The translations under genes and the position numbers were made by a program. Below the pieces are notes generated by a model that saw only the letters and a list, made by a program, of their open reading frames with translations, searched no databases and was not told the origin of the DNA. From IMG/VR virus record IMGVR_UViG_3300042864_002412, positions 1 to 40,086 of that record: a DNA stretch of 40,086 nucleotides. One strand, 5' to 3'. Positions 13,887 to 39,997 of the stretch are shown one piece after another (the stretch's first letter is position 1; each line of letters starts with the position of its first letter). This stretch comes from a virus.

Positions 13887-14216
13887 TTAATTTTGTAAAA
13901 ACCATAACACTCTGTCTGTTTCATTCATACCTAATGCATCGAAATATAAATCTGGATTTGGATGTTCTTTAATCCAATCCCGGACATTATGGTATTTTTT
14001 ATCGTTTAACCAAAATCCCACAGTTTCATCTGGACGAATTAATGTTGGTCCAGTTAATCGATGCCAACGATAATTTTTTTCACACCAAAGTTTTTCACTT
14101 GTTAAACTGTCTTGAAATGCGGGTGTTTGTTCATCAGGTGAAGAAATATCATGCAGAGGAATATCATCAAAATCTTCAGTGTAAAATTTTTCACCATCAA
14201 TATAATAAATTAACAT
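13887..14216 (-). CDS. HRLTGPA-family paralogue 2 (C-terminal type B), 109 aa
   Basis: Family features: LIYYIDGEKFYTEDF, ISSPDEQTPAFQ, KLWCEKNYRWHRLTGPTLI, FWLNDKKYHNVRDWIKEHPN. The end is type B: PDLYFDALGMNETDRVLWFL. Its start codon overlaps the stop of the gene at 14216 by one base, so it is translated by coupling. The type B copy at 24481 is arranged the same way. Confidence 0.85.
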   Translation of the reverse strand: MLIYYIDGEKFYTEDFDDIPLHDISSPDEQTPAFQDSLTSEKLWCEKNYRWHRLTGPTLIRPDETVGFWLNDKKYHNVRDWIKEHPNPDLYFDALGMNETDRVLWFLQN

Positions 14217-14588: not shown

Positions 14589-14611
14589 AGAGATTGCCTT
14601 ATGCAATCTCT
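14589..14611 (-). terminator. terminator after the ClpA-like gene
   Basis: A 9-bp stem (AGAGATTGC / GCAATCTCT) with a 5-nt loop; read on the minus strand it is followed by six T residues. The ClpA-like stop codon lies in the loop. Confidence 0.7.
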
Positions 14612-16818
14612 ACTTTAATTTCTTCATCAATTACGTCTAATGAAACTTTTACATTTTCAAAATGACGATTTTCAAACATCTTTTTTGAAATTTGCTTTTT
14701 AACAAAATCAGTAATTGCACGTTCCATTGGGCGTGCTCCCATTTTTGGGTTATAACCTTTTTTAGCAAGAAAATCAACAACCGCTTCAGAATACGTTAAT
14801 TGATTTAAATTTTCACTTAATTGGTTATTAAGACGATCAAGAAACTTTTTAGCAACTTGTTTGATTGCCGCTTCACTAAGACGATTGAAAACAACAACTT
14901 CATCTAACCGATTACGAAACTCAGGAGAAAAGGTTTTTTCAACTGCTTCCATAACATTTGATTGTAAATTATTTTCACTTGAATTAAACCCAATTGAGGC
15001 TTTTTCAGATTTAGCAGCACCAGCATTACTTGTCATAATGATAATAACATTATTAAATTTTACTGTTTTACCATCGCTTGAAGTTAATTTAGCATCATCT
15101 AAAACTTGCAAGAATGCATTAAAAATACTTGGGTGCGCTTTTTCAAATTCATCTAATAGTAAAATGGCATTTGGATTGGTTTCAATATCATTGATTAATT
15201 TTCCTGAACCACTTGAACCATCAGAATATCCAACATAACCAGGAGGTGAACCAATTAATTTACTAATTGAGTGCCCTTCCATATATTCACTCATATCATA
15301 TTTGAGCAAGGGAATGTTTAATTCTTTAGCTAATTCACGACAAACTTCTGTTTTGCCTGTTCCACTTGGGCCAACAAAAAGATAACGACCTAAAGGTTTA
15401 TTTGTATCGCGCATTCCGCATTTTGCAATAGCAACACTATCAACTAATGTTTCAATTGCTTGATCTTGTTCAAAAATACGTTGTTTAATATTTTTTGCTA
15501 AATCATAAATGCTTGATTCTTCTTTTTTAGCTTTTTGTGGGCGAATTTTTGTGATTTGAGTTAATTCAAATTCAATATCACTTTCTTCAACTGATTCTTT
15601 TTTATGAAACAATGCTCTAGCGCCCGCTGCATCGATTAAATCGATAGCTTTATCAGGCCATTTACGATTTGTAATATAAAGACCAGATAAATCAACTGCT
15701 GCATCTAAAGCCAAATTTGAGAATTTTACATTATGAAAATTTTCAAAACTTTCTTTTAAACCATAGAGAATTTGTTTTGTATAAACAGCAGAAGGTTCAT
15801 CAATAACAATTTCTTGGAATCGGCGCATTAATGGTTTATCTTTTTGTAGAATTTTACGATAATTCTCCGTATCGGTTGCGCCAATTAATTTTAAAGTTCC
15901 ACGAGCTAATGCGGGTTTTAAAATTTGTGCAGCATTCATAGCTGAATTTTCACCATTGTTCATTCCCATAAGTTGATGAATTTCATCAATAAAAAGAATT
16001 GTATTTTCATCTTGGGATAATTCATCAATGATTTTTTTCATACGTTCTTCAAATTCGCCGCGATACTTTGTACCAGCGATAACAGAATTTAAATCAAGAT
16101 TAAACACTCGTTTATTTTGAAGATTTTCAGGAACTTCGTTATTTGCAATTTTTAAAGCCAAGCCTTCAGCAATTGCGGTTTTACCAACACCAGCATCGCC
16201 AGTTAAAATAACATTAGATTTGCGTTTACGTAAAAGTCCTAGAAGAATTTTTAATGTTTCTTCATCACGTCCAATAATTTGATCAATTTTTCCGTTTTTT
16301 GCTAAATTAGTAAGATCAACGCCAAATTGATTTACATAGCCTTCTTTAGCAATCTGTTTATATTCTTTTAATTTTTCTTTATTTAAGCCACATTTTTCAA
16401 GAATAATAATTGATGAAGTTGTAGGAAAGGTGTCGATAATATATTGAATAAAATCTACTTTTGTAAAATTTGTTTCATAATCTTGATTATGTTGTGCAAG
16501 TTTTTTACAAATTTGATCAAAGCTTTGATCAGCTAAAAAGCCTTGTTTATAACCACCGCGAGTTTTTAAAACATTTTCAAGAATCCTTGCAACATCGTCT
16601 TGATGTTTATCAATGCGCGCATAACTTTGATTACATACAGTTGTAATTGTTGTTAACGCAAGTTCAAGATCAACACTTGCAAATTTTAAAATTTCAGAAA
16701 AATCTTTATCGAGTAACATTGCTGCAACAATTTGATCAACGGTAATATAATCGTGATTATTTTGTTCAGCATAAATTAAAGCAGTTTGATAAAGGTTTTG
16801 ATACGCTAGTTTATTCAT
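14599..16818 (-). CDS. ClpA-like AAA+ unfoldase, 739 aa
   Basis: An N-terminal Clp double repeat (about 1-145) is followed by AAA1 with Walker A GDAGVGKT (207-214) and Walker B ILFIDE (274-279), and AAA2 with GPSGTGKT (483-490), ILLLDE (552-557) and FRNRLDE (634-640). There is no long coiled-coil M domain between or inside the rings, which argues against ClpB. The loop SIGF (IGF at 609-611) matches in position the IGL/IGF loop by which ClpA and ClpX dock on ClpP. So it probably feeds proteins to host ClpP or to a phage peptidase outside the window. Length is close to E. coli ClpA (758). The start overlaps the stop of the upstream secreted-protein gene by 1 nt. Confidence 0.9.
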   Translation of the reverse strand: MNKLAYQNLYQTALIYAEQNNHDYITVDQIVAAMLLDKDFSEILKFASVDLELALTTITTVCNQSYARIDKHQDDVARILENVLKTRGGYKQGFLADQSFDQICKKLAQHNQDYETNFTKVDFIQYIIDTFPTTSSIIILEKCGLNKEKLKEYKQIAKEGYVNQFGVDLTNLAKNGKIDQIIGRDEETLKILLGLLRKRKSNVILTGDAGVGKTAIAEGLALKIANNEVPENLQNKRVFNLDLNSVIAGTKYRGEFEERMKKIIDELSQDENTILFIDEIHQLMGMNNGENSAMNAAQILKPALARGTLKLIGATDTENYRKILQKDKPLMRRFQEIVIDEPSAVYTKQILYGLKESFENFHNVKFSNLALDAAVDLSGLYITNRKWPDKAIDLIDAAGARALFHKKESVEESDIEFELTQITKIRPQKAKKEESSIYDLAKNIKQRIFEQDQAIETLVDSVAIAKCGMRDTNKPLGRYLFVGPSGTGKTEVCRELAKELNIPLLKYDMSEYMEGHSISKLIGSPPGYVGYSDGSSGSGKLINDIETNPNAILLLDEFEKAHPSIFNAFLQVLDDAKLTSSDGKTVKFNNVIIIMTSNAGAAKSEKASIGFNSSENNLQSNVMEAVEKTFSPEFRNRLDEVVVFNRLSEAAIKQVAKKFLDRLNNQLSENLNQLTYSEAVVDFLAKKGYNPKMGARPMERAITDFVKKQISKKMFENRHFENVKVSLDVIDEEIKVEIA

Positions 16819-17206: not shown

Positions 17207-17515
17207 TTAAGTGTATTTTTCTAACATTTCTTTTTGAAATGTTTCATCTTGATTTGGATGTTCTTTTAGCCAATCTCTTACATTTTCGTAATATTCTCCA
17301 TTTAAACAAAATTTTTTATATCCATCACCCGTAATTACGGCTGGACCTGTTAATCGATGAAATTTCCATCCTTTTTCGCACCAAAACTTGTGCCCTGTAC
17401 GTAAATTTTCGATTGCTGGCGTTTCATCATTTGGTGAAGAAACTTGATTAATAGGAACTTTCCAAAAATTTTGAGTTGTAAATTCATTACCCTCAATGTA
17501 AAAAACAAAACTCAT
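17207..17515 (-). CDS. HRLTGPA-family paralogue 3 (type A), 102 aa
   Basis: VFYIEGNEFTTQNF (Glu replaces the usual Asp in YYIDG), VSSPNDETPAIE, KFWCEKGWKFHRLTGPAVIT, FCLNGEYYENVRDWLKEHPN and the type A end QDETFQKEMLEKYT. ATG follows AAGGAGATATAA. It is a single-gene unit with its own near-consensus promoter (17548-17576) and terminator. Confidence 0.85.
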   Translation of the reverse strand: MSFVFYIEGNEFTTQNFWKVPINQVSSPNDETPAIENLRTGHKFWCEKGWKFHRLTGPAVITGDGYKKFCLNGEYYENVRDWLKEHPNQDETFQKEMLEKYT

Positions 17516-17547: not shown

Positions 17548-17576
17548 AGGATAATAAATTTTTTGTTATTTGTCAA
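17548..17576 (-). promoter_or_regulatory. promoter of family paralogue 3
   Basis: Minus-strand TTGACA (17571-17576), 17-nt spacer, TATCCT (17548-17553). The -35 lies within the last codons of the o-spanin-like gene, so this family gene has its own promoter inside its neighbour. Confidence 0.7.
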
Positions 17577-17892
17577 CGGGTTTTGGTAAATTTCTTTTTT
17601 GTAAAGTTTCGTAAAATTCGATTATTTTTTCTTGTTCAGAAATATATCGAAAAAACTCAACATTGTTTTCCAAATAAATTTTGAAATTATCTTCAGTTAA
17701 GATAATTAATCTTTGGTTGGGTTTATCAAAAAAATCACTTGAGTTGGCGATATTAACTGTAATTTTTTTTAATTCTAAAGGTTGAACTAAAGGAGCAACT
17801 ACAGGAATAGGATCATTTACATAAACTTCTGGTTTAGTAAAATATCCACAACCAACTAAAAATAATGGTAATAATAAAATTAAAAATTTCAT
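17566..17892 (-). CDS. outer-membrane lipoprotein, probable o-spanin (Rz1-type), 108 aa
   Basis: A lipoprotein signal with lipobox LVGC (Cys15) follows a hydrophobic stretch (KFLILLLPLFL). Then come a proline-rich segment (NDPIPVVAPLVQPLEL) and a C-terminal helix. The gene overlaps by 4 nt the end of a gene for an inner-membrane coiled-coil protein. That pairing is the signature of a two-component spanin, which fuses inner and outer membranes at the last step of lysis. It implies a Gram-negative host. It is longer than lambda Rz1; another phage lipoprotein role cannot be excluded. Confidence 0.65.
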   Translation of the reverse strand: MKFLILLLPLFLVGCGYFTKPEVYVNDPIPVVAPLVQPLELKKITVNIANSSDFFDKPNQRLIILTEDNFKIYLENNVEFFRYISEQEKIIEFYETLQKRNLPKPVDK

Positions 17893-18254
17893 TTAGCATC
17901 TCCTAATCGTAAAGATTTTAAAATTTCTTCATTTGCTTTTTGTTCAGCTTCTTTATTATCAGGAATTGTTTCTTTACTTAAATTTAATTGATTGATTGTT
18001 CTTTTATCTGTAATAGATTTTTTTCTAATTGCATCTAATGAGTTATTAAGGATTTTTTGCTGTTCGGCAATTTCCGCAATTTGTTCTTTTGTTTGTTTTA
18101 AAGTTTCTGTTGTTATTGTTAATTGTTGAGAAATTTCAGCATTTTTTGCTAATAAACTTTCATAGCTTGTTTTATAATACCAAGCACCCAAACCAACCAT
18201 TAAAAATAATAAAACTACACCTACAGTTAAATATCCAGTAATTCCAGTAAACAT
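17889..18254 (-). CDS. inner-membrane coiled-coil protein, probable i-spanin (Rz-type), 121 aa
   Basis: With ATG at 18254 (after GTGGGTGAAAA) the protein has one N-terminal membrane helix (about residues 8-27, VGVVLLFLMVGLGAWYY) and a long periplasmic coiled coil (about 33-100, SQQLTITTETLKQTKEQIAE), the classical N-in/C-out i-spanin layout. A GTG start 4 codons upstream is possible. The 4-nt overlap with the lipoprotein gene supports the spanin call. Function: spans the periplasm and pairs with the o-spanin. Confidence 0.65.
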   Translation of the reverse strand: MFTGITGYLTVGVVLLFLMVGLGAWYYKTSYESLLAKNAEISQQLTITTETLKQTKEQIAEIAEQQKILNNSLDAIRKKSITDKRTINQLNLSKETIPDNKEAEQKANEEILKSLRLGDAK

Positions 18255-18270
18255 TTTTTCACCCACTTGT

Positions 18271-18282: not shown

Positions 18283-18693
18283 ATGTCTGGATTTTATTTT
18301 TATGTTGATTTTAAAGAAGAAACAAACAAAAGCTTAGAAAAATTTTGTTTGGATAATAATATAAAAAATTTTACTGAATTTTTTCATTGTACAATTTGTG
18401 ATAGTACCGTTGATGTAAATTTTTCAATTCAAAAACCAATTAATGATTTAATTTTTGATCGTTGGGAATATTGGAAAGATAGTAAAGATAATCTTATTTT
18501 AGTTGCTATAATAAAAAGCAATTATTTGAATAATCGATTTAATATGTTGAAATTGTTGGGAATTCAAACAAATTATGAGAAATACAATCCTCATATAACT
18601 TTAAGTTATATGGTGGAAGAAAAAATTGAAAATCTTCCACCATTAACATTTCCTCTTTTACTCGATCAAGAAATAGTTACCAAGTACAAATAA
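18283..18693 (+). CDS. 2H phosphoesterase, Acb1-like (anti-CBASS) candidate, 136 aa
   Basis: Two H-x-T motifs, HCT (35-37) in EFFHCTICDS and HIT (104-106) in YNPHITLSY, form the active site of 2H phosphoesterases. The overall plan fits T4 gene 57B product (Acb1), which degrades cyclic oligonucleotide signals of CBASS: opening GFYFYVDF, first HxT near residue 35, a central W-x-x-x-x-x-x-NLILVAIIKS strand, second HxT 69 residues later, and FPLLLDQEIV at the end. As I recall the T4 residues (His44 and His113), the spacing is the same. A tRNA-processing or RNA-end role is the main alternative. Divergent from the spanin genes. Confidence 0.65.
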   Translation: MSGFYFYVDFKEETNKSLEKFCLDNNIKNFTEFFHCTICDSTVDVNFSIQKPINDLIFDRWEYWKDSKDNLILVAIIKSNYLNNRFNMLKLLGIQTNYEKYNPHITLSYMVEEKIENLPPLTFPLLLDQEIVTKYK

Positions 18694-18925
18694 CTTTTCC
18701 AACTTCAAGATCAAGATTATTTTCTTTTACTCGATTAGATAATGAATTTGGAATGCTTTCATTTTCAATACGATAAAGCTTACCATCAATATTAAATTGA
18801 CGAAGTTTTATTTGAAAATCATTTTTAACTTCATCTGGAAGATCGATAACGGCAATTTTAACTGCTTTCTTATCAAGAAAAGCAATATATTCAACCAGCA
18901 AATTTACAAAAAGTACATTTTCCAT
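18677..18925 (-). CDS. hypothetical protein, 82 aa
   Basis: It begins MENVLFVNLLVEYIAFLDKK and continues as a mixed alpha/beta protein (FQIKLRQFNIDGKLYRIENE) ending in GKVICTW. No family recognised. ATG is preceded by AAAGGAATTAAG. Its end overlaps the Acb1-like gene by 17 nt, tail to tail. Confidence 0.55.
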   Translation of the reverse strand: MENVLFVNLLVEYIAFLDKKAVKIAVIDLPDEVKNDFQIKLRQFNIDGKLYRIENESIPNSLSNRVKENNLDLEVGKVICTW

Positions 18926-21932: not shown

Positions 21933-22260
21933 ATTCCATATCTAAATTAAAACTTTCTCCGCACCCACAGCCACCTGATGCATTTGGATTAGTAAAAGTT
22001 AATCCTGAAGAAAACATTGTTTTTTCTAAATCTATAACAGTACCAATGATATAAATTAAACTTTCATTTTCAACATAAAGTTTAAATTCATTATAATCAA
22101 TTTCAGTTACATTTTGTTCATTATCATAAAAATCAAAACTATATTGAAATCCAGAACAACCTTTTGCTCTTAAACCAAGAATAAAACTATTTTTATTATG
22201 TTGTTTTGTTAAATCAATTAAATGTTGTTTAGCATTATCAGTAATTACAATTGCACTCAT
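21931..22260 (-). CDS. A-type iron-sulfur carrier (IscA/ErpA/HesB family), 109 aa
   Basis: The three ligand cysteines are present: Cys35 in AKGCSGFQYSF and Cys98/Cys100 in GGCGCGESF. The protein carries Fe-S clusters to target enzymes; related genes occur in T4-like cyanophages. The start is ATG at 22260 after GGGGGATATTTTA; a TTG five codons upstream is less likely. ATG overlaps the stop of the PilZ gene by one base (TAATG), so the two are translationally coupled. Confidence 0.9.
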   Translation of the reverse strand: MSAIVITDNAKQHLIDLTKQHNKNSFILGLRAKGCSGFQYSFDFYDNEQNVTEIDYNEFKLYVENESLIYIIGTVIDLEKTMFSSGLTFTNPNASGGCGCGESFNLDME

Positions 22261-22748
22261 TAAAATATCCCCCAAAATTTCTTTTTTGTTTGTGGTTTTT
22301 GTTGTGATTTTACCATATCAAATAAAATATCATTAAAAAATGACCAAGATGATTCTGATAATGATAAGAATTTAATTCCCATTTCTTTATTTTGTCGATC
22401 AATCCACATACCACGACATTTTACAAACGTAGTTTTATCTTTTAATTGAAATACTGCAAAAAATTCATTAGCATTTTTACTTGAAAAATCCCAAAGATTA
22501 ATTTTAATTTTAGCACCACTTATACTAAAATCCAATACATCATATTCTTTATTATTAATTTTAGCTTTTAATTCAGGATGATAATGACGCTTATTATTTC
22601 TTTTAGGATCATTTTTATTTTCAATTGTTTTTTCTTCATTTAATTTTTCTTTATCAGATTTTGAATAAGAATTATCAGAGCCACCATCTTGTCTAATGGC
22701 TCTTAATAATTCTAATGCTAATCTTTGTTTTTTATCTAACTCGATCAT
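22260..22748 (-). CDS. PilZ-domain protein, 162 aa
   Basis: Residues about 50-150 form a PilZ domain: NKRHYHPELKAKI, then the D-x-S-x-x-G motif (Asp73-Phe-Ser75-Ile-Ser-Gly78) and GMWIDRQNKEMGIKFLSL near the end. PilZ domains bind cyclic-di-GMP. The upstream R-x-x-x-R motif is incomplete (Arg54, with His/Pro where the second Arg is expected), so binding may be weak or lost. The first 50 residues are charged and flexible. It lies in a coupled operon with secreted protein, 2H protein and Fe-S carrier genes. A role in host motility or surface control is a guess. Confidence 0.7.
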   Translation of the reverse strand: MIELDKKQRLALELLRAIRQDGGSDNSYSKSDKEKLNEEKTIENKNDPKRNNKRHYHPELKAKINNKEYDVLDFSISGAKIKINLWDFSSKNANEFFAVFQLKDKTTFVKCRGMWIDRQNKEMGIKFLSLSESSWSFFNDILFDMVKSQQKPQTKKKFWGIF

Positions 22749-23059: not shown

Positions 23060-23509
23060 TTAAAACTCCTTTAAGTCTTTGTGTGGATCTTTACCAATGG
23101 TAATGTGAAGAGGATCATCAAATCGATTAATCAATCCCATTTCTTTGCGAATTTCCATAAGATCATCGGAACGAACTCGAATAACCCAAAAATTACCATT
23201 TTTAACAGAATACGGTTGATTGGAATATTCAAATTCAAACCATTGATTATGGTATTTTTTCCATAACGACGTATCCATATCAACATTGCTTGATACAAAA
23301 TCTCGTTCACCACGAATTACAGAAATGTGGGCACCCCAAGCAGGAACAAGCAAATGTTTATGATAAAGATGATTAACCCACCAACGATAATAATTTGAAA
23401 TTTCTTGATCAACTTGTAAAACTGCCCATCGCTTAACGCGATTTTTCATATTTTGACGATTAGGATCATAAATTAACTTACCGCGAGATTTAAACGGAAA
23501 ATCAAACAT
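23060..23509 (-). CDS. second 2H phosphoesterase-like protein, 149 aa
   Basis: Two motifs fit the 2H active site: HIS (61-63) in WGAHISVIRGE and HIT (135-137) in DPLHITIGKD, 74 residues apart. Between them are a Trp-rich segment and a strand WVIRVRSDDL. It differs clearly from the 2H protein at 18283, so the phage carries two enzymes of the fold. Possible substrates are 2',3'-cyclic phosphates on RNA or cyclic nucleotide signals. First gene of the operon that runs to 21931, behind a consensus promoter. Confidence 0.65.
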   Translation of the reverse strand: MFDFPFKSRGKLIYDPNRQNMKNRVKRWAVLQVDQEISNYYRWWVNHLYHKHLLVPAWGAHISVIRGERDFVSSNVDMDTSLWKKYHNQWFEFEYSNQPYSVKNGNFWVIRVRSDDLMEIRKEMGLINRFDDPLHITIGKDPHKDLKEF

Positions 23510-23542: not shown

Positions 23543-23571
23543 ATTATATGAGAAACAATATTCATTGTCAA
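23543..23571 (-). promoter_or_regulatory. perfect-consensus sigma70 promoter
   Basis: Minus-strand TTGACA (23566-23571), 17-nt spacer, TATAAT (23543-23548): both boxes match consensus. It drives the 2H-secreted-PilZ-IscA operon; its -35 overlaps the last codon of family paralogue 4. Confidence 0.85.
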
Positions 23572-23879
23572 GAATATTTTAAAAGCATTTCTACTTGAAA
23601 GGCGTTATCTTGATTTGGGTGATCTGCTAACCAATCTTTTACATTTCTAAAATAACATTTATCATTTAAATAAAACTCTTTTTTACCATCTGAGAGAATA
23701 ATCCCTGGTCCAGTTAAACGATGCCAAATAAATCCTTTTTTACACCAAATTTTAACTCCTGTTGATAAATTTTCAAGTGCAGGTGTAATTTCATCAGGAG
23801 ATGAAATTTCATTACGAGGAATTTCATTTTTAGTATCGGTTGTAAATTTTTCACCATCAATATAATAAATATAAGTCAT
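23568..23879 (-). CDS. HRLTGPA-family paralogue 4 (type A), 103 aa
   Basis: YIYYIDGEKFTTDTKNEIPR, ISSPDEITPALE, KIWCKKGFIWHRLTGPGIIL, FYLNDKCYFRNVKDWLADHPN and the type A end QDNAFQVEMLLKYS. One extra residue before the N-V segment compared with other copies. ATG follows AAAGGATATTTA; the gene is divergent from gp25, 22 nt away. Confidence 0.85.
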   Translation of the reverse strand: MTYIYYIDGEKFTTDTKNEIPRNEISSPDEITPALENLSTGVKIWCKKGFIWHRLTGPGIILSDGKKEFYLNDKCYFRNVKDWLADHPNQDNAFQVEMLLKYS

Positions 23880-24480: not shown

Positions 24481-24813
24481 TTAATTTTGTAAAAACCACA
24501 AAACTCGTTCAGTTTCTGTTTTTATTCCAATTGCATCGAAGTATAAATCGGGATTTGGATGATCATTAATCCATTCTTTTATAGAAGGATAACCAATTCC
24601 ATTTAAATAAAATTCTTCTGTCCCATCAAACCAAATTCTAGCTGGCCCAGTTAATCGATGCCAAATTACTTTTTTTTCAAACCAAGATTTATATCCATCA
24701 GATAAATCTTCAAAAGCAGGAATATCATCATTGGGGGATGAAATATCATAAAAATTAATTCCATCTTTATTATCGGTTGTAAATTTATTTCCATCAACAT
24801 AATAAATAAACAT
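24481..24813 (-). CDS. HRLTGPA-family paralogue 5 (type B), 110 aa
   Basis: FIYYVDGNKFTTDNKDGINF, ISSPNDDIPAFE, KSWFEKKVIWHRLTGPARIW (Phe replaces the usual Cys after Trp), FYLNGIGYPSIKEWINDHPN and the type B end PDLYFDAIGIKTETERVLWF. The start overlaps the stop of the 133-aa gene by one base, as for paralogue 2. Confidence 0.85.
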   Translation of the reverse strand: MFIYYVDGNKFTTDNKDGINFYDISSPNDDIPAFEDLSDGYKSWFEKKVIWHRLTGPARIWFDGTEEFYLNGIGYPSIKEWINDHPNPDLYFDAIGIKTETERVLWFLQN

Positions 24814-28754: not shown

Positions 28755-28781
28755 TGATTGTTTTTAACAAGGAGAAATAAC

Positions 28782-29084
28782 ATGTATAAATTTTATATTG
28801 ATGGAAAAGAATTTTTAACCGATGATTTTAATAATATTCCTAGACATGATATTTCATCACTCGATGAAAATACGCCAGCATTTGAAAATTTAGAAACTGG
28901 TTATAAACGATGGTGTGAAAAAGGAAATATTTGGCATCGATTAACTGGACCTGCCATTATTTGGTCAGATGGGAAAGAATTTTGGTTAAATGATCAACCA
29001 TATGAAAATGTTGATGAATGGCTAAAATACCATCCAAATCAAGACGAAGCTTTCAAGAAAGAAATGCTTAAACTTTGGAACTAA
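28782..29084 (+). CDS. HRLTGPA-family paralogue 6 (type A), 100 aa
   Basis: The ATG at 28782, after AAGGAGAAATAAC, gives MYKFYIDGKEFLTDDF; upstream codons in the same frame are ignored. Then ISSLDENTPAFE, KRWCEKGNIWHRLTGPAIIW, FWLNDQPYENVDEWLKYHPN and a type A end whose last residues differ (QDEAFKKEMLKLWN). Single-gene unit: own promoter and own terminator. Faces away from the UvsW-like gene. Confidence 0.85.
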   Translation: MYKFYIDGKEFLTDDFNNIPRHDISSLDENTPAFENLETGYKRWCEKGNIWHRLTGPAIIWSDGKEFWLNDQPYENVDEWLKYHPNQDEAFKKEMLKLWN

Positions 29085-30674: not shown

Positions 30675-31007
30675 TTAATTTTGTAAGTACCAAAGAACTT
30701 TATCGGTTTCTGTAAAAACTCCAATTTTATGAAAATATAATGTTGGATTTGGGTGATCTTTTAACCAATCATGAATATTTTCATATGGTTCACCATTTAT
30801 AAAAAAATATTCTGATCCATCAGGCCAAATTGTTGCTGGTCCGATTAAACAATGACGAATAAATCCTCTTTTACACCAAATTTTATGACCAGTTAATAAA
30901 TTTTCAAAAGCGGATGTATTATCATTAGGTGAATATATATCTTCCCAAGGAATATCTTCTCTATCGGTTGTAAATTTTTCACCATCAATGTAATAAATGT
31001 ATCTCAT
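30675..31007 (-). CDS. HRLTGPA-family paralogue 7 (type B), 110 aa
   Basis: YIYYIDGEKFTTDREDIPWE, YSSPNDNT-like segment (IYSPNDNTSAFE), KIWCKRGFIRHCLIGPATIW: here the core HRLTGPA has become HCLIGPA, the most altered core of all copies. Then FFINGEPYENIHDWLKDHPN and the type B end PTLYFHKIGVFTETDKVLWY. No frame break. Confidence 0.85.
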   Translation of the reverse strand: MRYIYYIDGEKFTTDREDIPWEDIYSPNDNTSAFENLLTGHKIWCKRGFIRHCLIGPATIWPDGSEYFFINGEPYENIHDWLKDHPNPTLYFHKIGVFTETDKVLWYLQN

Positions 31008-32313: not shown

Positions 32314-32343
32314 AAAAGAGGGAAAGTTAACTTTCCCTCTTTT
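32314..32343. terminator. perfect 30-bp palindromic terminator
   Basis: Arms AAAAGAGGGAAAGTT / AACTTTCCCTCTTTT between the Sm-like gene and the convergent family paralogue 8. Confidence 0.85.
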
Positions 32344-32675
32344 TAATTTTTCAAATACCAAAGAACCTTATCAGTTTCATTCATACCCAAGGCATCAAAA
32401 TACAAATCGGGATTTGGATGATCCTTTAACCATTCTTTTACATTTTCATATCTTTTATCATTTAAATAAAAATCTTCTTTTCCATCAGGCCAAATTCTCG
32501 CAGGTCCGGTTAATCTATGAATAATCCAATCTTTTTCGTGCCATTCTTTATAACCAGCAATTGTGTCTTCATAAGCTGGTGTTTCTTCATTTGGTGATGA
32601 AATTTCATACCGAGGAATATCACCATAATTATTTGTTGTAAATTTCTTTCCATCAATATAATAAACATGTGTCAT
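32343..32675 (-). CDS. HRLTGPA-family paralogue 8 (type B), 110 aa
   Basis: HVYYIDGKKFTTNNYGDIPR, ISSPNEETPAYE, KEWHEKDWIIHRLTGPARIW (His replaces the usual Cys), FYLNDKRYENVKEWLKDHPN and the type B end PDLYFDALGMNETDKVLWYL. It is nearly the consensus of the type B group. Upstream, toward 32793, lies a 117-nt gap without a gene. Confidence 0.85.
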   Translation of the reverse strand: MTHVYYIDGKKFTTNNYGDIPRYEISSPNEETPAYEDTIAGYKEWHEKDWIIHRLTGPARIWPDGKEDFYLNDKRYENVKEWLKDHPNPDLYFDALGMNETDKVLWYLKN

Positions 32676-32792: not shown

Positions 32793-33130
32793 CTAATTTT
32801 TCAAATACCAAAGAACTCTATCGGTTTCATTCAAATCAATTGCATCAAAATAAAGTTCTGGATTTGGATGATTTTTTAATCCACCCTTTTATGTTTCTAA
32901 ATATTCTTCCATTCAAACCATATAATAAATTTCCGTTTGGATAAATTTCAGCAGGACCAGTTAAGCGATGCCAAACATATCCTTTTAAACACCAAAACTT
33001 ATATCCATCAGATAAGTCTTCTAATGCTGGCGTATTGTCATCTGGTGAAGAAATTCTAAGCCAAGGAATTTTTTTCATTTCTATTTTCACTTAGATGTTT
33101 TTTACCATCAATGTAATAAACGTAACTCAT
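32793..33130 (-). pseudogene. HRLTGPA-family paralogue 9 (type B) with two frameshifts
   Basis: The start at 33130 reads MSYVYYIDGKKHLSENRN, then the frame is lost in a run of seven A (33069-33075, shown as T). The next frame carries IPWLRISSPDDNTPALE, FWCLKGYVWHRLTGPAEI and GLNGRIFRNIKGWI. It breaks again in six A (32872-32877), after which the third reading gives HPNPELYFDAIDLNETDRVL and a stop at 32793. Both breaks are one extra A in a homopolymer. This may be true decay, phase variation or sequencing error. Confidence 0.75.
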
Positions 33131-33138
33131 ATCAATAA

Positions 33139-33162
33139 AAAATGGGGATTTCTCCCCATTTT
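33139..33162. terminator. terminator of the VWA/metallopeptidase gene
   Basis: A 10-bp stem (AAAATGGGGA / TCCCCATTTT) with a 4-nt loop. Confidence 0.7.
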
Positions 33163-34405
33163 ATTTCCCTAAACGTTCATAAGGAACAGTTTGTCCATAT
33201 GGTGATTTTGGTGCCCCTTGTCCATAAACAATAAACAAGCTATCGCAATAATTTGGATCACCCCAGCTATCATTTGGATAACCATCAGTAAACATTACAA
33301 ATCGATCAGGAACAATTTGATTTTCTTTCATAAAATCAAAATTAACTTCAAAACTTGTACCACCGCCGCCACCAGGAACATATGAATCAATATCATTAGC
33401 ATTTGCCATAGTGAATTTTTGGAAGTTATAAACACGAGTGTCGAAAGTCCAAAGATAAAGTTCAAAATCTTTAAACTGCGTCATAATGCCTTTTACTTCT
33501 GATAAAAATTCACGAAGCATTTCATCAGTCATAGAACCAGATGTATCAATGCAACAATGCACTTTTACTGTAGTATCGTTTTTTTGTCCTGGTAAAATAA
33601 TACCACCGGGCATACTCCAACTACGGCGATTTGGGCGTGTAAATGTATAGTCGCTTTTTAGCATTGATTTTACAAAGCATTCAAGTAAGCTACGCCAATC
33701 TAATTTAGGATCAAGTAATTCACCTAATGCTCGTTGGATACCAGCAGGAACATTGCCTGCACCAGCGGCAACAGCAGCAGAAATAACACGATTACGAACT
33801 TCTTGTCGCATTTTTTCAATTTCTTCTGCACTTAATTTTGGTGGACCATTTTTCCCCAAAACTGTAACGGTTGCGCCTTCTTTACCATCACCATCGTTTT
33901 CATCTTCACCTTCACCACCTTCTAAATCAAGGTGTTCATCAAAACCAACTTTAAATGAAACTGAATTTTTCATAAGGTCATGATAAATTGCTTCAGAAAC
34001 CCAATCTTCATCGTATTTTTTATCGTAAAGTGCATCTTTAGGACAAACTCCTAATACTTTGTCTTTACTGAGTTTTTCATTCCATGCAACAATATCGTAA
34101 TTGATACGATAATCCATCGCCATATTCATAATATTACGATCATAACTACCATACCCGCGCCCAATGTGATCATATGCACAATGTAAAACTTCATGAGCAC
34201 AAATAAAGATCAATTCGCCAATTGGACGTTTTAAAACAAAGTCTCGATTGTAATATAATCTTAAACCATCGGTTGCCATCGTTTGAAGCCAAGTAGAAGC
34301 ATCAACAGAAATTAAACTAGCAATAAGTGGGGCCATAAAAGGGTTATGCATCATGATAAAGCTTTTAGCTTTCATAATCATAACTTCAACTGGATCATTT
34401 GCCAT
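33161..34405 (-). CDS. metallopeptidase-like/VWA-domain protein (DUF2201 type), 414 aa
   Basis: The N-terminal domain has a zinc-binding HEVLHCAYDH (His71, Glu72, His75, with His80 as possible third ligand), as in the putative metallopeptidase part of the DUF2201/VWA-like family. An acidic linker (about 160-176) follows. The C-terminal VWA-like domain has the MIDAS signature DTSGS (287-291), a GGGGGT loop (345-350) and FTDG (372-375). Such proteins work with MoxR AAA+ ATPases, and a MoxR gene lies 0.6 kb upstream on the same strand. Role in the phage is unknown; a chaperone/protease-like remodelling of a target complex is the family expectation. ATG follows AAGAGGTAATTTAT. Confidence 0.85.
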   Translation of the reverse strand: MANDPVEVMIMKAKSFIMMHNPFMAPLIASLISVDASTWLQTMATDGLRLYYNRDFVLKRPIGELIFICAHEVLHCAYDHIGRGYGSYDRNIMNMAMDYRINYDIVAWNEKLSKDKVLGVCPKDALYDKKYDEDWVSEAIYHDLMKNSVSFKVGFDEHLDLEGGEGEDENDGDGKEGATVTVLGKNGPPKLSAEEIEKMRQEVRNRVISAAVAAGAGNVPAGIQRALGELLDPKLDWRSLLECFVKSMLKSDYTFTRPNRRSWSMPGGIILPGQKNDTTVKVHCCIDTSGSMTDEMLREFLSEVKGIMTQFKDFELYLWTFDTRVYNFQKFTMANANDIDSYVPGGGGGTSFEVNFDFMKENQIVPDRFVMFTDGYPNDSWGDPNYCDSLFIVYGQGAPKSPYGQTVPYERLGK

Positions 34406-34432
34406 ATAAATTACCTCTTTTCTTTTTTAAAT

Positions 34433-34984
34433 TTAATTACGTAAATATTTTCCAACTTTTTCTGCAAGTTTTTTCATAGAAGTTAAATCCCTATAATCAA
34501 CGCCATAACATAATGTTTTATTTGACATTATTAAACGCGAATTTAATATATTATGTTCATAAGAAAAATTATTCATAATAAATTCTAAATAATTATTAGC
34601 ATATTCTTGTTTCACTTGTTTGTCAATTTCATTATTTTGAATAATTGTTTCAAATTCTTTAAGAAGAAATGAAATTAATCCTAAAGGATTTTTTGAATTA
34701 AAATTTTTAATATTACCAGAAAATACATCAATTGCTGAGATACTATCTTTTAAAGTTAAATCTGGTTCAACAAATTTAATTTTAATTTCTTCTAATAATA
34801 AATCGATTAATTCAGAAAATGATTTTTGTTTAATATTTTGATTATAAAACAAAATATTATTTTCAATTTTAAAATTATCAACCATAGAATTACCAACATT
34901 TTTTAAATTAGAAACAAAAAATCTATATTCTGGATTTTTAAATAAAATAATCGATGTTTTAATTTTTAATAACATTTCTTCCAT
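34433..34984 (-). CDS. stand-alone paralogue of the MoxR C-terminal domain, 183 aa
   Basis: Residues about 84-183 align with the last 100 residues of the MoxR protein encoded just upstream: IDVFSGNIKNF/EDIFTGKIKKI, NNYLEFIMNNFSYEHNIL/ENFLQFVTVNFSKEYNIL, YGVDYRDLTSMKKLAEKVGK/DGFVWRDMQIMTDWANEYGP. There is no Walker motif. The gene seems to be a duplicated MoxR that has lost its ATPase. It sits between the MoxR and VWA genes and could act as an adaptor or brake of the complex. Confidence 0.75.
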   Translation of the reverse strand: MEEMLLKIKTSIILFKNPEYRFFVSNLKNVGNSMVDNFKIENNILFYNQNIKQKSFSELIDLLLEEIKIKFVEPDLTLKDSISAIDVFSGNIKNFNSKNPLGLISFLLKEFETIIQNNEIDKQVKQEYANNYLEFIMNNFSYEHNILNSRLIMSNKTLCYGVDYRDLTSMKKLAEKVGKYLRN

Positions 34985-35004
34985 TAAAAACTCCTATGAA
35001 TAAA

Positions 35005-35029
35005 TTAGGAGAGATTAAATCTCTCCTAA
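35005..35029 (-). terminator. palindromic terminator after the MoxR gene
   Basis: A 12-bp perfect stem (TTAGGAGAGATT / AATCTCTCCTAA) around one base. It may limit read-through from the MoxR gene into its duplicated fragment and the VWA gene. Confidence 0.65.
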
Positions 35030-35032
35030 TTT

Positions 35033-36214
35033 TTAACCACGAATGTAAGGACCGTATTCATTCGCCCAATCAGTCATGATTTGCATATCACGCCAAACAA
35101 AGCCGTCTGCAATAATTTTGTCTTTCATTGCAGTACGTGCAACTAAAATGTTGTATTCTTTAGAGAAATTAACTGTAACAAATTGTAGGAAATTTTCCCC
35201 GTATTTGTTTTTTGTTTTTGCATCAATTTTTTCATTATCAGGAATTTTACGCAATGCTTGAATAAGCATGGTAACAAGAGTCCATTGAATGCCCACGTCG
35301 AGTTTTTCACCAATTTTCTTAATTTTACCAGTGAAAATATCTTCTGGTGCAGGAATTCGATTTGCATCTTTTACGTGTGCAACGAAAGGAATAGCGTGTT
35401 TAGTGCCAACTTTTGAAGCAACGTCAATTCCTAAACTAATTGGATCATCAAGCAAATCAGGATTTGCATTTAATGAATCAGAAACGAATTGCCATGTACG
35501 GGGCGTAGCAAATGCGTTTTCTGAAGAAGTAGGGTCAAACTCATCGGTTGCATCGGTAAACTTTGAAAGATAACCAATTACAAGAGCATGATAATTCTTA
35601 TTAGTTGCAATTGTACGCCATTCTTCAAAGTCAAAAATTAATTCAACGTGAGCAACACGATTACGAACCGGAGTTGGAAGAGAGAATGTTACGCCACGGT
35701 CAGTTTCACGATTACCAGCAGCGACGATGATAGTATCTTCAGGGAAACGAAGTTCACCAATCCCACGATCAAGAAGAATTTGATAAGCAGCAGCTTGAAT
35801 TGTTTGCTGTGCAGAATTCATTTCATCCAAGAAAATAACTGTTGGTGCGTCGTTTTCAGTAGGCCACATTTCAGGTGAAGCCCATTTAACCATAACAGTA
35901 GTGCCTTCTTTAACACCAGCCATTTTAGCAAGATCAGGATCACTAATGGTAACTGGAATTGGAATACCACGAAGATCGGTAGGTTCCATTTGTGCAAGGC
36001 GAATATCAACTAATCGATATTGTACTTGTTTGCCGTTACGAATACCATAAATTGAATCAGCATAATCACGTACAAGTGAACTTTTACCAATGCCTGGGGC
36101 ACCCCAAATCATAACTGTAGTTTTTGAACGGCGCTGATTTTGTAAAAATTTTACAAGTTGACTTGGTTTAACTTGTGTTAGTGATGTAGCGCTCATTGAT
36201 GTTTTTTTAGCCAT
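35033..36214 (-). CDS. MoxR-like AAA+ ATPase, 393 aa
   Basis: Walker A is GAPGIGKS (38-45), Walker B VIFLDE (126-131), followed by AAGNRETDRGVTFSLPTPVRNR with sensor 1 Asn and an arginine-finger region. The C-terminal part (about 290-393) forms a separate domain that also exists as its own gene at 34433. MoxR ATPases act as chaperones for VWA proteins and their targets. ATG follows CAGGAGAAAGTATTTAAT. Function in the phage unknown. Confidence 0.85.
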   Translation of the reverse strand: MAKKTSMSATSLTQVKPSQLVKFLQNQRRSKTTVMIWGAPGIGKSSLVRDYADSIYGIRNGKQVQYRLVDIRLAQMEPTDLRGIPIPVTISDPDLAKMAGVKEGTTVMVKWASPEMWPTENDAPTVIFLDEMNSAQQTIQAAAYQILLDRGIGELRFPEDTIIVAAGNRETDRGVTFSLPTPVRNRVAHVELIFDFEEWRTIATNKNYHALVIGYLSKFTDATDEFDPTSSENAFATPRTWQFVSDSLNANPDLLDDPISLGIDVASKVGTKHAIPFVAHVKDANRIPAPEDIFTGKIKKIGEKLDVGIQWTLVTMLIQALRKIPDNEKIDAKTKNKYGENFLQFVTVNFSKEYNILVARTAMKDKIIADGFVWRDMQIMTDWANEYGPYIRG

Positions 36215-38735: not shown

Positions 38736-39041
38736 ATGATTATTTATTATATTGATGGTGAAAAATTTCTAACTGAAGATAATAGTGTAATTCCTTTGTT
38801 AGAAATTTCTTCACCTAATGAACGAACACCCGCTTTTGAAAATTTAGAATCAGGATTTAAATTTTGGTGTTTAAATGGCGGTATTCATCATCGATTAACC
38901 GGACCTGCTTTTATTTGGGATGATGGAAGAGTACGATTTTATTTAAATGATAAAAGATATGACAATGTAAATGATTGGTTAAAAGTACACCCAAATCAAG
39001 ACAATGCCTTTCAGGTAGAAATGATATTAAAATACACATAA
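38736..39041 (+). CDS. HRLTGPA-family paralogue 10 (type A), 101 aa
   Basis: IIYYIDGEKFLTEDNSVIPL, ISSPNERTPAFE, KFWCLNGGIHHRLTGPAFIW, FYLNDKRYDNVNDWLKVHPN and the type A end QDNAFQVEMILKYT. ATG follows CAAGGAATAAAA only 2 nt after the nadE stop, so it is co-transcribed with nadE. Confidence 0.85.
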   Translation: MIIYYIDGEKFLTEDNSVIPLLEISSPNERTPAFENLESGFKFWCLNGGIHHRLTGPAFIWDDGRVRFYLNDKRYDNVNDWLKVHPNQDNAFQVEMILKYT

Positions 39042-39060: not shown

Positions 39061-39369
39061 ATGACATATGTTTACTATGTTGATGGTGAAAAATTTACAA
39101 CTGATAAAACTCATGAAATCCCTTTGTCAAAAATTTCATCACCCGATGAAAATACACCTGCTTGGGAAAATTTATCAACAGGTAAAAAATATTGGTGTAA
39201 TAAAGGATTAATTTTGCATCGCTTAACTGGACCCGCAGTAATTAATTCTGATGGACAAGAACACTTTTGGCTAAATGATAACGCTTATAAAAACGTACAT
39301 GATTGGTTAAAAGATCACCCAAATCAAGATAACGCCTTTCAAGTGGAAATGCTGTTAAAATACACATAA
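39061..39369 (+). CDS. HRLTGPA-family paralogue 11 (type A), 102 aa
   Basis: YVYYVDGEKFTTDKTHEIPL, ISSPDENTPAWE, KYWCNKGLILHRLTGPAVIN, FWLNDNAYKNVHDWLKDHPN and the type A end QDNAFQVEMLLKYT. ATG follows GAAAGAAAAATAAT. It is in tandem with paralogue 10, 19 nt apart, and ends at the terminator at 39373. Confidence 0.85.
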   Translation: MTYVYYVDGEKFTTDKTHEIPLSKISSPDENTPAWENLSTGKKYWCNKGLILHRLTGPAVINSDGQEHFWLNDNAYKNVHDWLKDHPNQDNAFQVEMLLKYT

Positions 39370-39688: not shown

Positions 39689-39997
39689 ATGAGATATATT
39701 TATTATATTGATAATAAAAAATTTACAACCGATAATTACAATACAATTCCTTTTGATGAAATTTCCTCTCCTGATGAAAATACACCTGCTTATGAAGTTT
39801 TAGAAACAGGTGAAAAACTTTGGTGTGAAAAAGGATGGCGATGGCATCGCTTAACAGGACCAGCAAGAATTTGTTTTAACGGAAAAATTCAATTTTGGAT
39901 AGATGATTATTTTTATGATAATATTCATAAATGGTTATCAATACATCCAAATCAAGACAATTCCTTTCAAATTGAAATGCTTTTAAAATATTCATAA
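39689..39997 (+). CDS. HRLTGPA-family paralogue 12 (type A), 102 aa
   Basis: YIYYIDNKKFTTDNYNTIPF (Asn replaces Gly in YYIDG), ISSPDENTPAYE, KLWCEKGWRWHRLTGPARIC, FWIDDYFYDNIHKWLSIHPN and the type A end QDNSFQIEMLLKYS. ATG follows AAAAAGGATAAAATGTT. Single gene between divergent and convergent neighbours. Confidence 0.85.
   Translation: MRYIYYIDNKKFTTDNYNTIPFDEISSPDENTPAYEVLETGEKLWCEKGWRWHRLTGPARICFNGKIQFWIDDYFYDNIHKWLSIHPNQDNSFQIEMLLKYS

Follow-up and report, generated by a model that had tools for sequence, protein, structure and literature searches.

CBASS is a bacterial antiviral defence that uses cyclic-nucleotide alarm molecules, and these molecules are cut by Acb1 enzymes. The gene at positions 18,283 to 18,693 (plus strand) of the window, that is, of the whole 40,086-nucleotide stretch of viral DNA analysed here, raises the question of whether it encodes an enzyme of this type, as the original prediction proposed from two histidine motifs, and whether its product would still act on the signals of CBASS.

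The acb1-like gene and its genomic context

The open reading frame was confirmed as a real gene of 136 codons running from ATG to TAA, with neither a frameshift nor an internal stop, and it encodes a 2H phosphoesterase of the Acb1 family. The histidines of its HCT (H35-C36-T37) and HIT (H104-I105-T106) motifs are exactly 69 residues apart, as had been described. No ATG-initiated frame of at least 136 amino acids arose in 500 shufflings of the surrounding 1.5 kb, and the G+C content declines from codon position 1 to position 3 in the same way as in the other genes of the window. Moreover, a chance origin of the frame is ruled out by its match to the Pfam family PF23474 (E 4e-20).

The gene had been regarded as a stand-alone unit divergent from the lysis genes, and this arrangement was borne out by the upstream minus-strand neighbours, an Rz-like i-spanin (17,889-18,266; phrog_739, Rz-like spanin, E 3.5e-6; GTG start listed, with an ATG at 18,254) and an Rz1-like lipoprotein o-spanin (17,566-17,892; phrog_812, Rz-like spanin, E 1e-7). 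Since spanins are present, the host is probably a Gram-negative bacterium. On the other side, the last 17 bp of the acb1-like gene are shared with the 3' end of a convergent 82-amino acid frame (18,677-18,925, minus strand); this frame had no Pfam match and no relative among GenBank phages, and matched weakly phrog_18675, itself of unknown function (E 0.006). A T4-type late promoter (TATAAATA) was sought just upstream of the acb1-like gene and not found. Besides, no anti-defence gene was recognised among the neighbours, and PADLOC returned no match for the four proteins tried.

The DNA of the window recurs in a 146 kb IMG/VR contig, with 0 mismatches over 10,408 bases and 100% identity over 40 kb, indicating that the window belongs to a larger phage, and no second acb1 was detected in that contig. 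The best matches of the UvsW-like helicase and the gp25-like protein of the window were found in the jumbo phages Atu_ph07 (49%) and Phosso (41%), respectively. Among the jumbo phages that share other genes with this phage, PF23474 was absent from Atu_ph07, Phosso, PA5oct, and RaK2, while divergent PF23474 proteins were present in GAP32 and XbC2. In the T4-like phages examined, gene 57B follows gp1 and usually 57A, whereas the acb1-like gene stands alone. These observations extend Acb1 to an uncultured phage whose relationship to known jumbo phages is only distant, and to a setting outside the T4-like 57A-57B operon.

A divergent member of a known family

The encoded protein is clearly a distant member of the Acb1 family, that is, a divergent new member of a known family, and the identity originally proposed was supported by a curated profile, a PDB sequence search, the alignment to T4 gp57B, and fold comparison. 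Residues 3-133 matched positions 2-135 of the 144 in the PF23474 (Acb1) profile with 72.4 bits, against a curated cut-off of 27 bits that was reached in none of 14 control genomes. The best solved structure in the PDB sequence search was the FBB1 Acb1 (7t26, E 4e-8), and pairwise comparison with T4 gp57B (Acb1) gave 32% identity over most of the length (E 9e-17), with the catalytic tetrad in register. An AlphaFold2 model built with a 41-row family alignment reached a mean pLDDT of 94.5 and a pTM of 0.87, and the first five Foldseek matches in the PDB were all Acb1 structures, including 7t27 (E 5.5e-10, TM 0.83), 7t26 (TM 0.86), and those from Burkholderia phage BCSR5 (9q2y and 9q2g, TM 0.78-0.80). 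An Acb1 was also the best match in a viral structure library. Thus, the closest structural relative was an Acb1 and not a LigT-type 2H enzyme, the outcome that had been named as contrary to the proposed identity.

Membership of the same 2H superfamily raises the alternative of a LigT-like RNA 2',3'-cyclic phosphodiesterase or 2'-5' RNA ligase acting in RNA or tRNA repair, to which PF02834 (E 0.02) and TIGR02258 (E 0.004), both matching weakly, and the 'RNA ligase' label of the matching PHROGs family (phrog_755, E 2e-20) also point. However, both profile scores fell under their cut-offs (15.4 against 23.3 bits and 17 against 65.7 bits), the same 'RNA ligase' label is carried in RefSeq by T4 gp57B, an Acb1, and E. 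coli LigT, despite the common 2H phosphoesterase fold, ranked sixth with a clearly worse fit (E 6e-4, TM 0.67, against TM 0.83), so that we regard a role in RNA repair as very unlikely. The poxvirus cGAMP phosphodiesterases also have a 2H fold and act on cyclic GMP-AMP, but the penguinpox structures (9bkq and 9ciw) matched only weakly by fold (E about 0.3, TM at most 0.5), and the lid of the poxvirus enzyme is N-terminal (PMC12064943).

Relatives of the protein were distant wherever they were found. A tblastn search of GenBank phages retrieved 1249 records, the sampled matches being mostly T4-like gp57B proteins with 26-34% identity. In the viral_contigs collection, a single-sequence search found only the same phage, and a profile search found 79 loci, none of which, self aside, was more than 34% identical along most of the sequence. 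Bacterial genomes contributed one weak partial match, and the plasmids searched contributed none. In the phylogenetic tree, the acb1-like sequence formed a very long branch that was not firmly placed.

The PF23474 proteins of the Mimasvirus jumbo phages GAP32 (locus L119, 867-1313) and XbC2 (locus L120, 881-1327), annotated as hypothetical or structural, resemble the acb1-like protein in passing the family cut-off and in having no W147 lid motif. Their identity to it is only 15-20%, however, and they combine an HxT with an HxS second motif, so that they are not considered close relatives. In both jumbo phages, one small gene separates the gene of this PF23474 protein from a Sir2-like gene, and it is possible that the two form an uncharacterised anti-defence pair.

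Catalytic residues and the base-stacking pocket

In T4 numbering, catalysis by Acb1 depends on H44, T46, H113, and T115, base stacking on Y12, W74, F107, and W147, and the adenine N6 contact on E141, while residues 145-152 form a lid closing over the ligand (Hobbs et al., 2022, PMC9117128). The complete HxT/HxT tetrad was found in register in the acb1-like protein, as H35 and T37 in the first motif (18,385-18,393) and H104 and T106 in the second (18,592-18,600), and both motifs were invariant in all 41 aligned rows, although for H104 and T106 this invariance is partly built in because the family loci behind the alignment were collected with the pattern Yx[PA]H[IV]TLSY, which covers the second motif. 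All 41 rows also matched PF23474.

Three of the four base-stacking aromatics are kept, with Y12 and W74 identical and F107 replaced by tyrosine: Y5 (18,295-18,297; Y in 39/41 rows), W64 (18,472-18,474; W in 25/41 and F in 15/41), and Y98 (18,574-18,576; F in 23/41 and Y in 16/41). Altogether, the protein shares with T4 gp57B and FBB1 Acb1 (7t26 and 7t27) the fold, the tetrad, these three aromatics, the YxPHITLSY block, and a conserved glutamate (T4 E138, here E130).

From homology and the retained residues, the enzyme is predicted to cleave cyclic di- or trinucleotide signals of CBASS, a reading to which we assign a probability of roughly 0.78. The activity expected of an Acb1 is the cleavage of 3'3'-cGAMP, cUA, and cAAA, with cGG and cA4 left uncut. 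During infection, the acb1-like enzyme would bind cyclic di- or trinucleotides produced by host CD-NTases, the 2'-OH beside the strained 3'-5' linkage would serve as nucleophile with H35 and H104 as the acid-base pair, and the ring would be opened without a metal, so that CBASS effectors would be prevented from killing the cell before phage multiplication. Such a prediction is consistent with the behaviour of T4 Acb1 and nine further homologues, all of which cleaved 3'3'-cGAMP and cAAA (Hobbs et al., 2022, PMC9117128).

A short C-terminus without the lid

The prediction of an Acb1 stood as regards family membership, while the proposed activity carries a caveat that had gone unseen, namely that both the E141 contact and the W147-bearing lid at the C-terminus are missing. 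Compared with T4 gp57B, the protein ends early in TKYK followed by the stop codon (18,679-18,693, plus strand), six residues past the glutamate equivalent to T4 E138 and before the lid would begin, and the adenine-contacting E141, a glutamate in 35 of the 41 aligned members, is replaced by T133. At the place of W147, the same 41 members carry tryptophan in about 30 cases, tyrosine in two, and neither in nine, the acb1-like protein among them, according to counts read by eye from the listed C-termini. E141 and the W147 lid are thus features of the characterised Acb1 enzymes that are not universal in the family. Both are also missing from a few other family members, among them L053, L062, and L084, judged from the alignment, and L061, judged from its C-terminus; the first three pass the cut-off of the Acb1 profile, and the loss of the lid is not unique to our sequence. 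No clade is claimed for the lidless members, since the placement of the acb1-like sequence in the tree is not firm.

A review of later work describes the Acb1 lid as stabilising the substrate (PMC12064943), and in our literature search no text was found on lidless Acb1 proteins or on the activity of the BCSR5 Acb1. The latter shares the fold with our protein, but it is only about 18% identical and longer, and its structure was solved with the lid open and closed. The acb1-like protein also shows that some natural Acb1 members have neither the adenine contact nor the lid presumed to cover the bound substrate, and such members make the role of both parts in substrate choice directly testable. 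The two differences deserve an assay; alone, they do not make a new class, and in other respects the protein is an ordinary one for its family.

Three observations weigh against the cleavage of CBASS signals, namely the substitution of E141 together with the absent W147 lid, the very long branch of a sequence whose sole close relative is its own genome, and the neighbourhood free of recognised anti-defence genes. Having lost E141 and the lid, the enzyme probably differs from T4 Acb1 in its affinity and in the bases that it prefers, and the substrate range may differ. A shifted substrate, such that an Acb1-family enzyme would depend neither on adenine nor on a small ring size and would cut a different cyclic nucleotide (cyclic di-GMP, cyclic dinucleotides made of pyrimidines only, or larger rings, for instance), would fit the loss of precisely the two published elements for adenine selection and lid closure, here and in L053, L062, L084, and L061. 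It would also fit the presence, 3.6 kb away, of a PilZ-domain protein (22,260-22,748, minus strand) whose RxxxR and DxSxxG motifs are of the kind usual in cyclic di-GMP receptors. We consider such a shift unlikely, given that the tetrad and the remaining pocket (Y5, W64, and Y98) are conserved and that the PilZ link is one of proximity only. It is similarly doubtful that the lidless, E141-less Acb1 proteins represent a functional variant whose spectrum is independent of adenine or takes in other cyclic nucleotides or larger ones; if true, this variant would let phages counter nucleotide-signalled systems beyond the reach of T4-type Acb1.

The truncation at the lid, the 17 bp overlap with the convergent gene, the low G+C content, and the long branch could also be the marks of a decaying acb1 gene that lost its 3' end and now encodes an inactive or weak enzyme. 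This explanation appears highly improbable, considering that the reading frame is uninterrupted, the catalytic and pocket residues are intact, model confidence is high through the last residue, and comparably short C-termini occur in other phages. The cleavage of CBASS signals by a lidless Acb1 is the reading we retain for this gene, at the probability given above.

Other genes of the window

The PilZ assignment mentioned above rests on PF07238 (E 6e-7, over cut-off), and no relative of this protein was found in GenBank phages. A second 2H-type protein (23,060-23,509, minus strand) carries HIS and HIT motifs, scores just over the cut-off of PF22547 (2H-SAK), matches phrog_12204 (E 2e-37), and is common to jumbo phages of the RaK2/GAP32/Atu_ph07 type. 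Additionally, the minus strand encodes a full-length ClpA/ClpB-like AAA+ protein (14,599-16,818; phrog_4871, 'ATP-dependent protease', E 1e-222; TIGR02639 ClpA under cut-off) and, near each other, a DUF2201 metallopeptidase/VWA-like protein and an AAA ATPase (33,161-36,214) that resemble a MoxR-VWA pair.

A family of paralogues of about 100 amino acids, with the pattern YYIDGEKFTT...ISSPDENTPA...HRLTGPA...DWLKxHPNQD, is scattered on both strands. Its members in the window lie at 706-1014, 28,758-29,084, 38,736-39,041, 39,061-39,369, and 39,689-39,997 on the plus strand, and at 13,887-14,216, 17,207-17,515, 23,568-23,879, 24,481-24,813, 30,675-31,007, 32,343-32,675, and 32,845-33,090 on the minus strand. 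The one member tested had no Pfam or PHROG match, no relative was found in GenBank phages, and a confident AlphaFold2 model (pLDDT 95.9) had no fold match in the PDB. The 146 kb contig as a whole gave 42 matches to these paralogues, a massive gene expansion in a single phage, which is more striking than the acb1-like gene itself.
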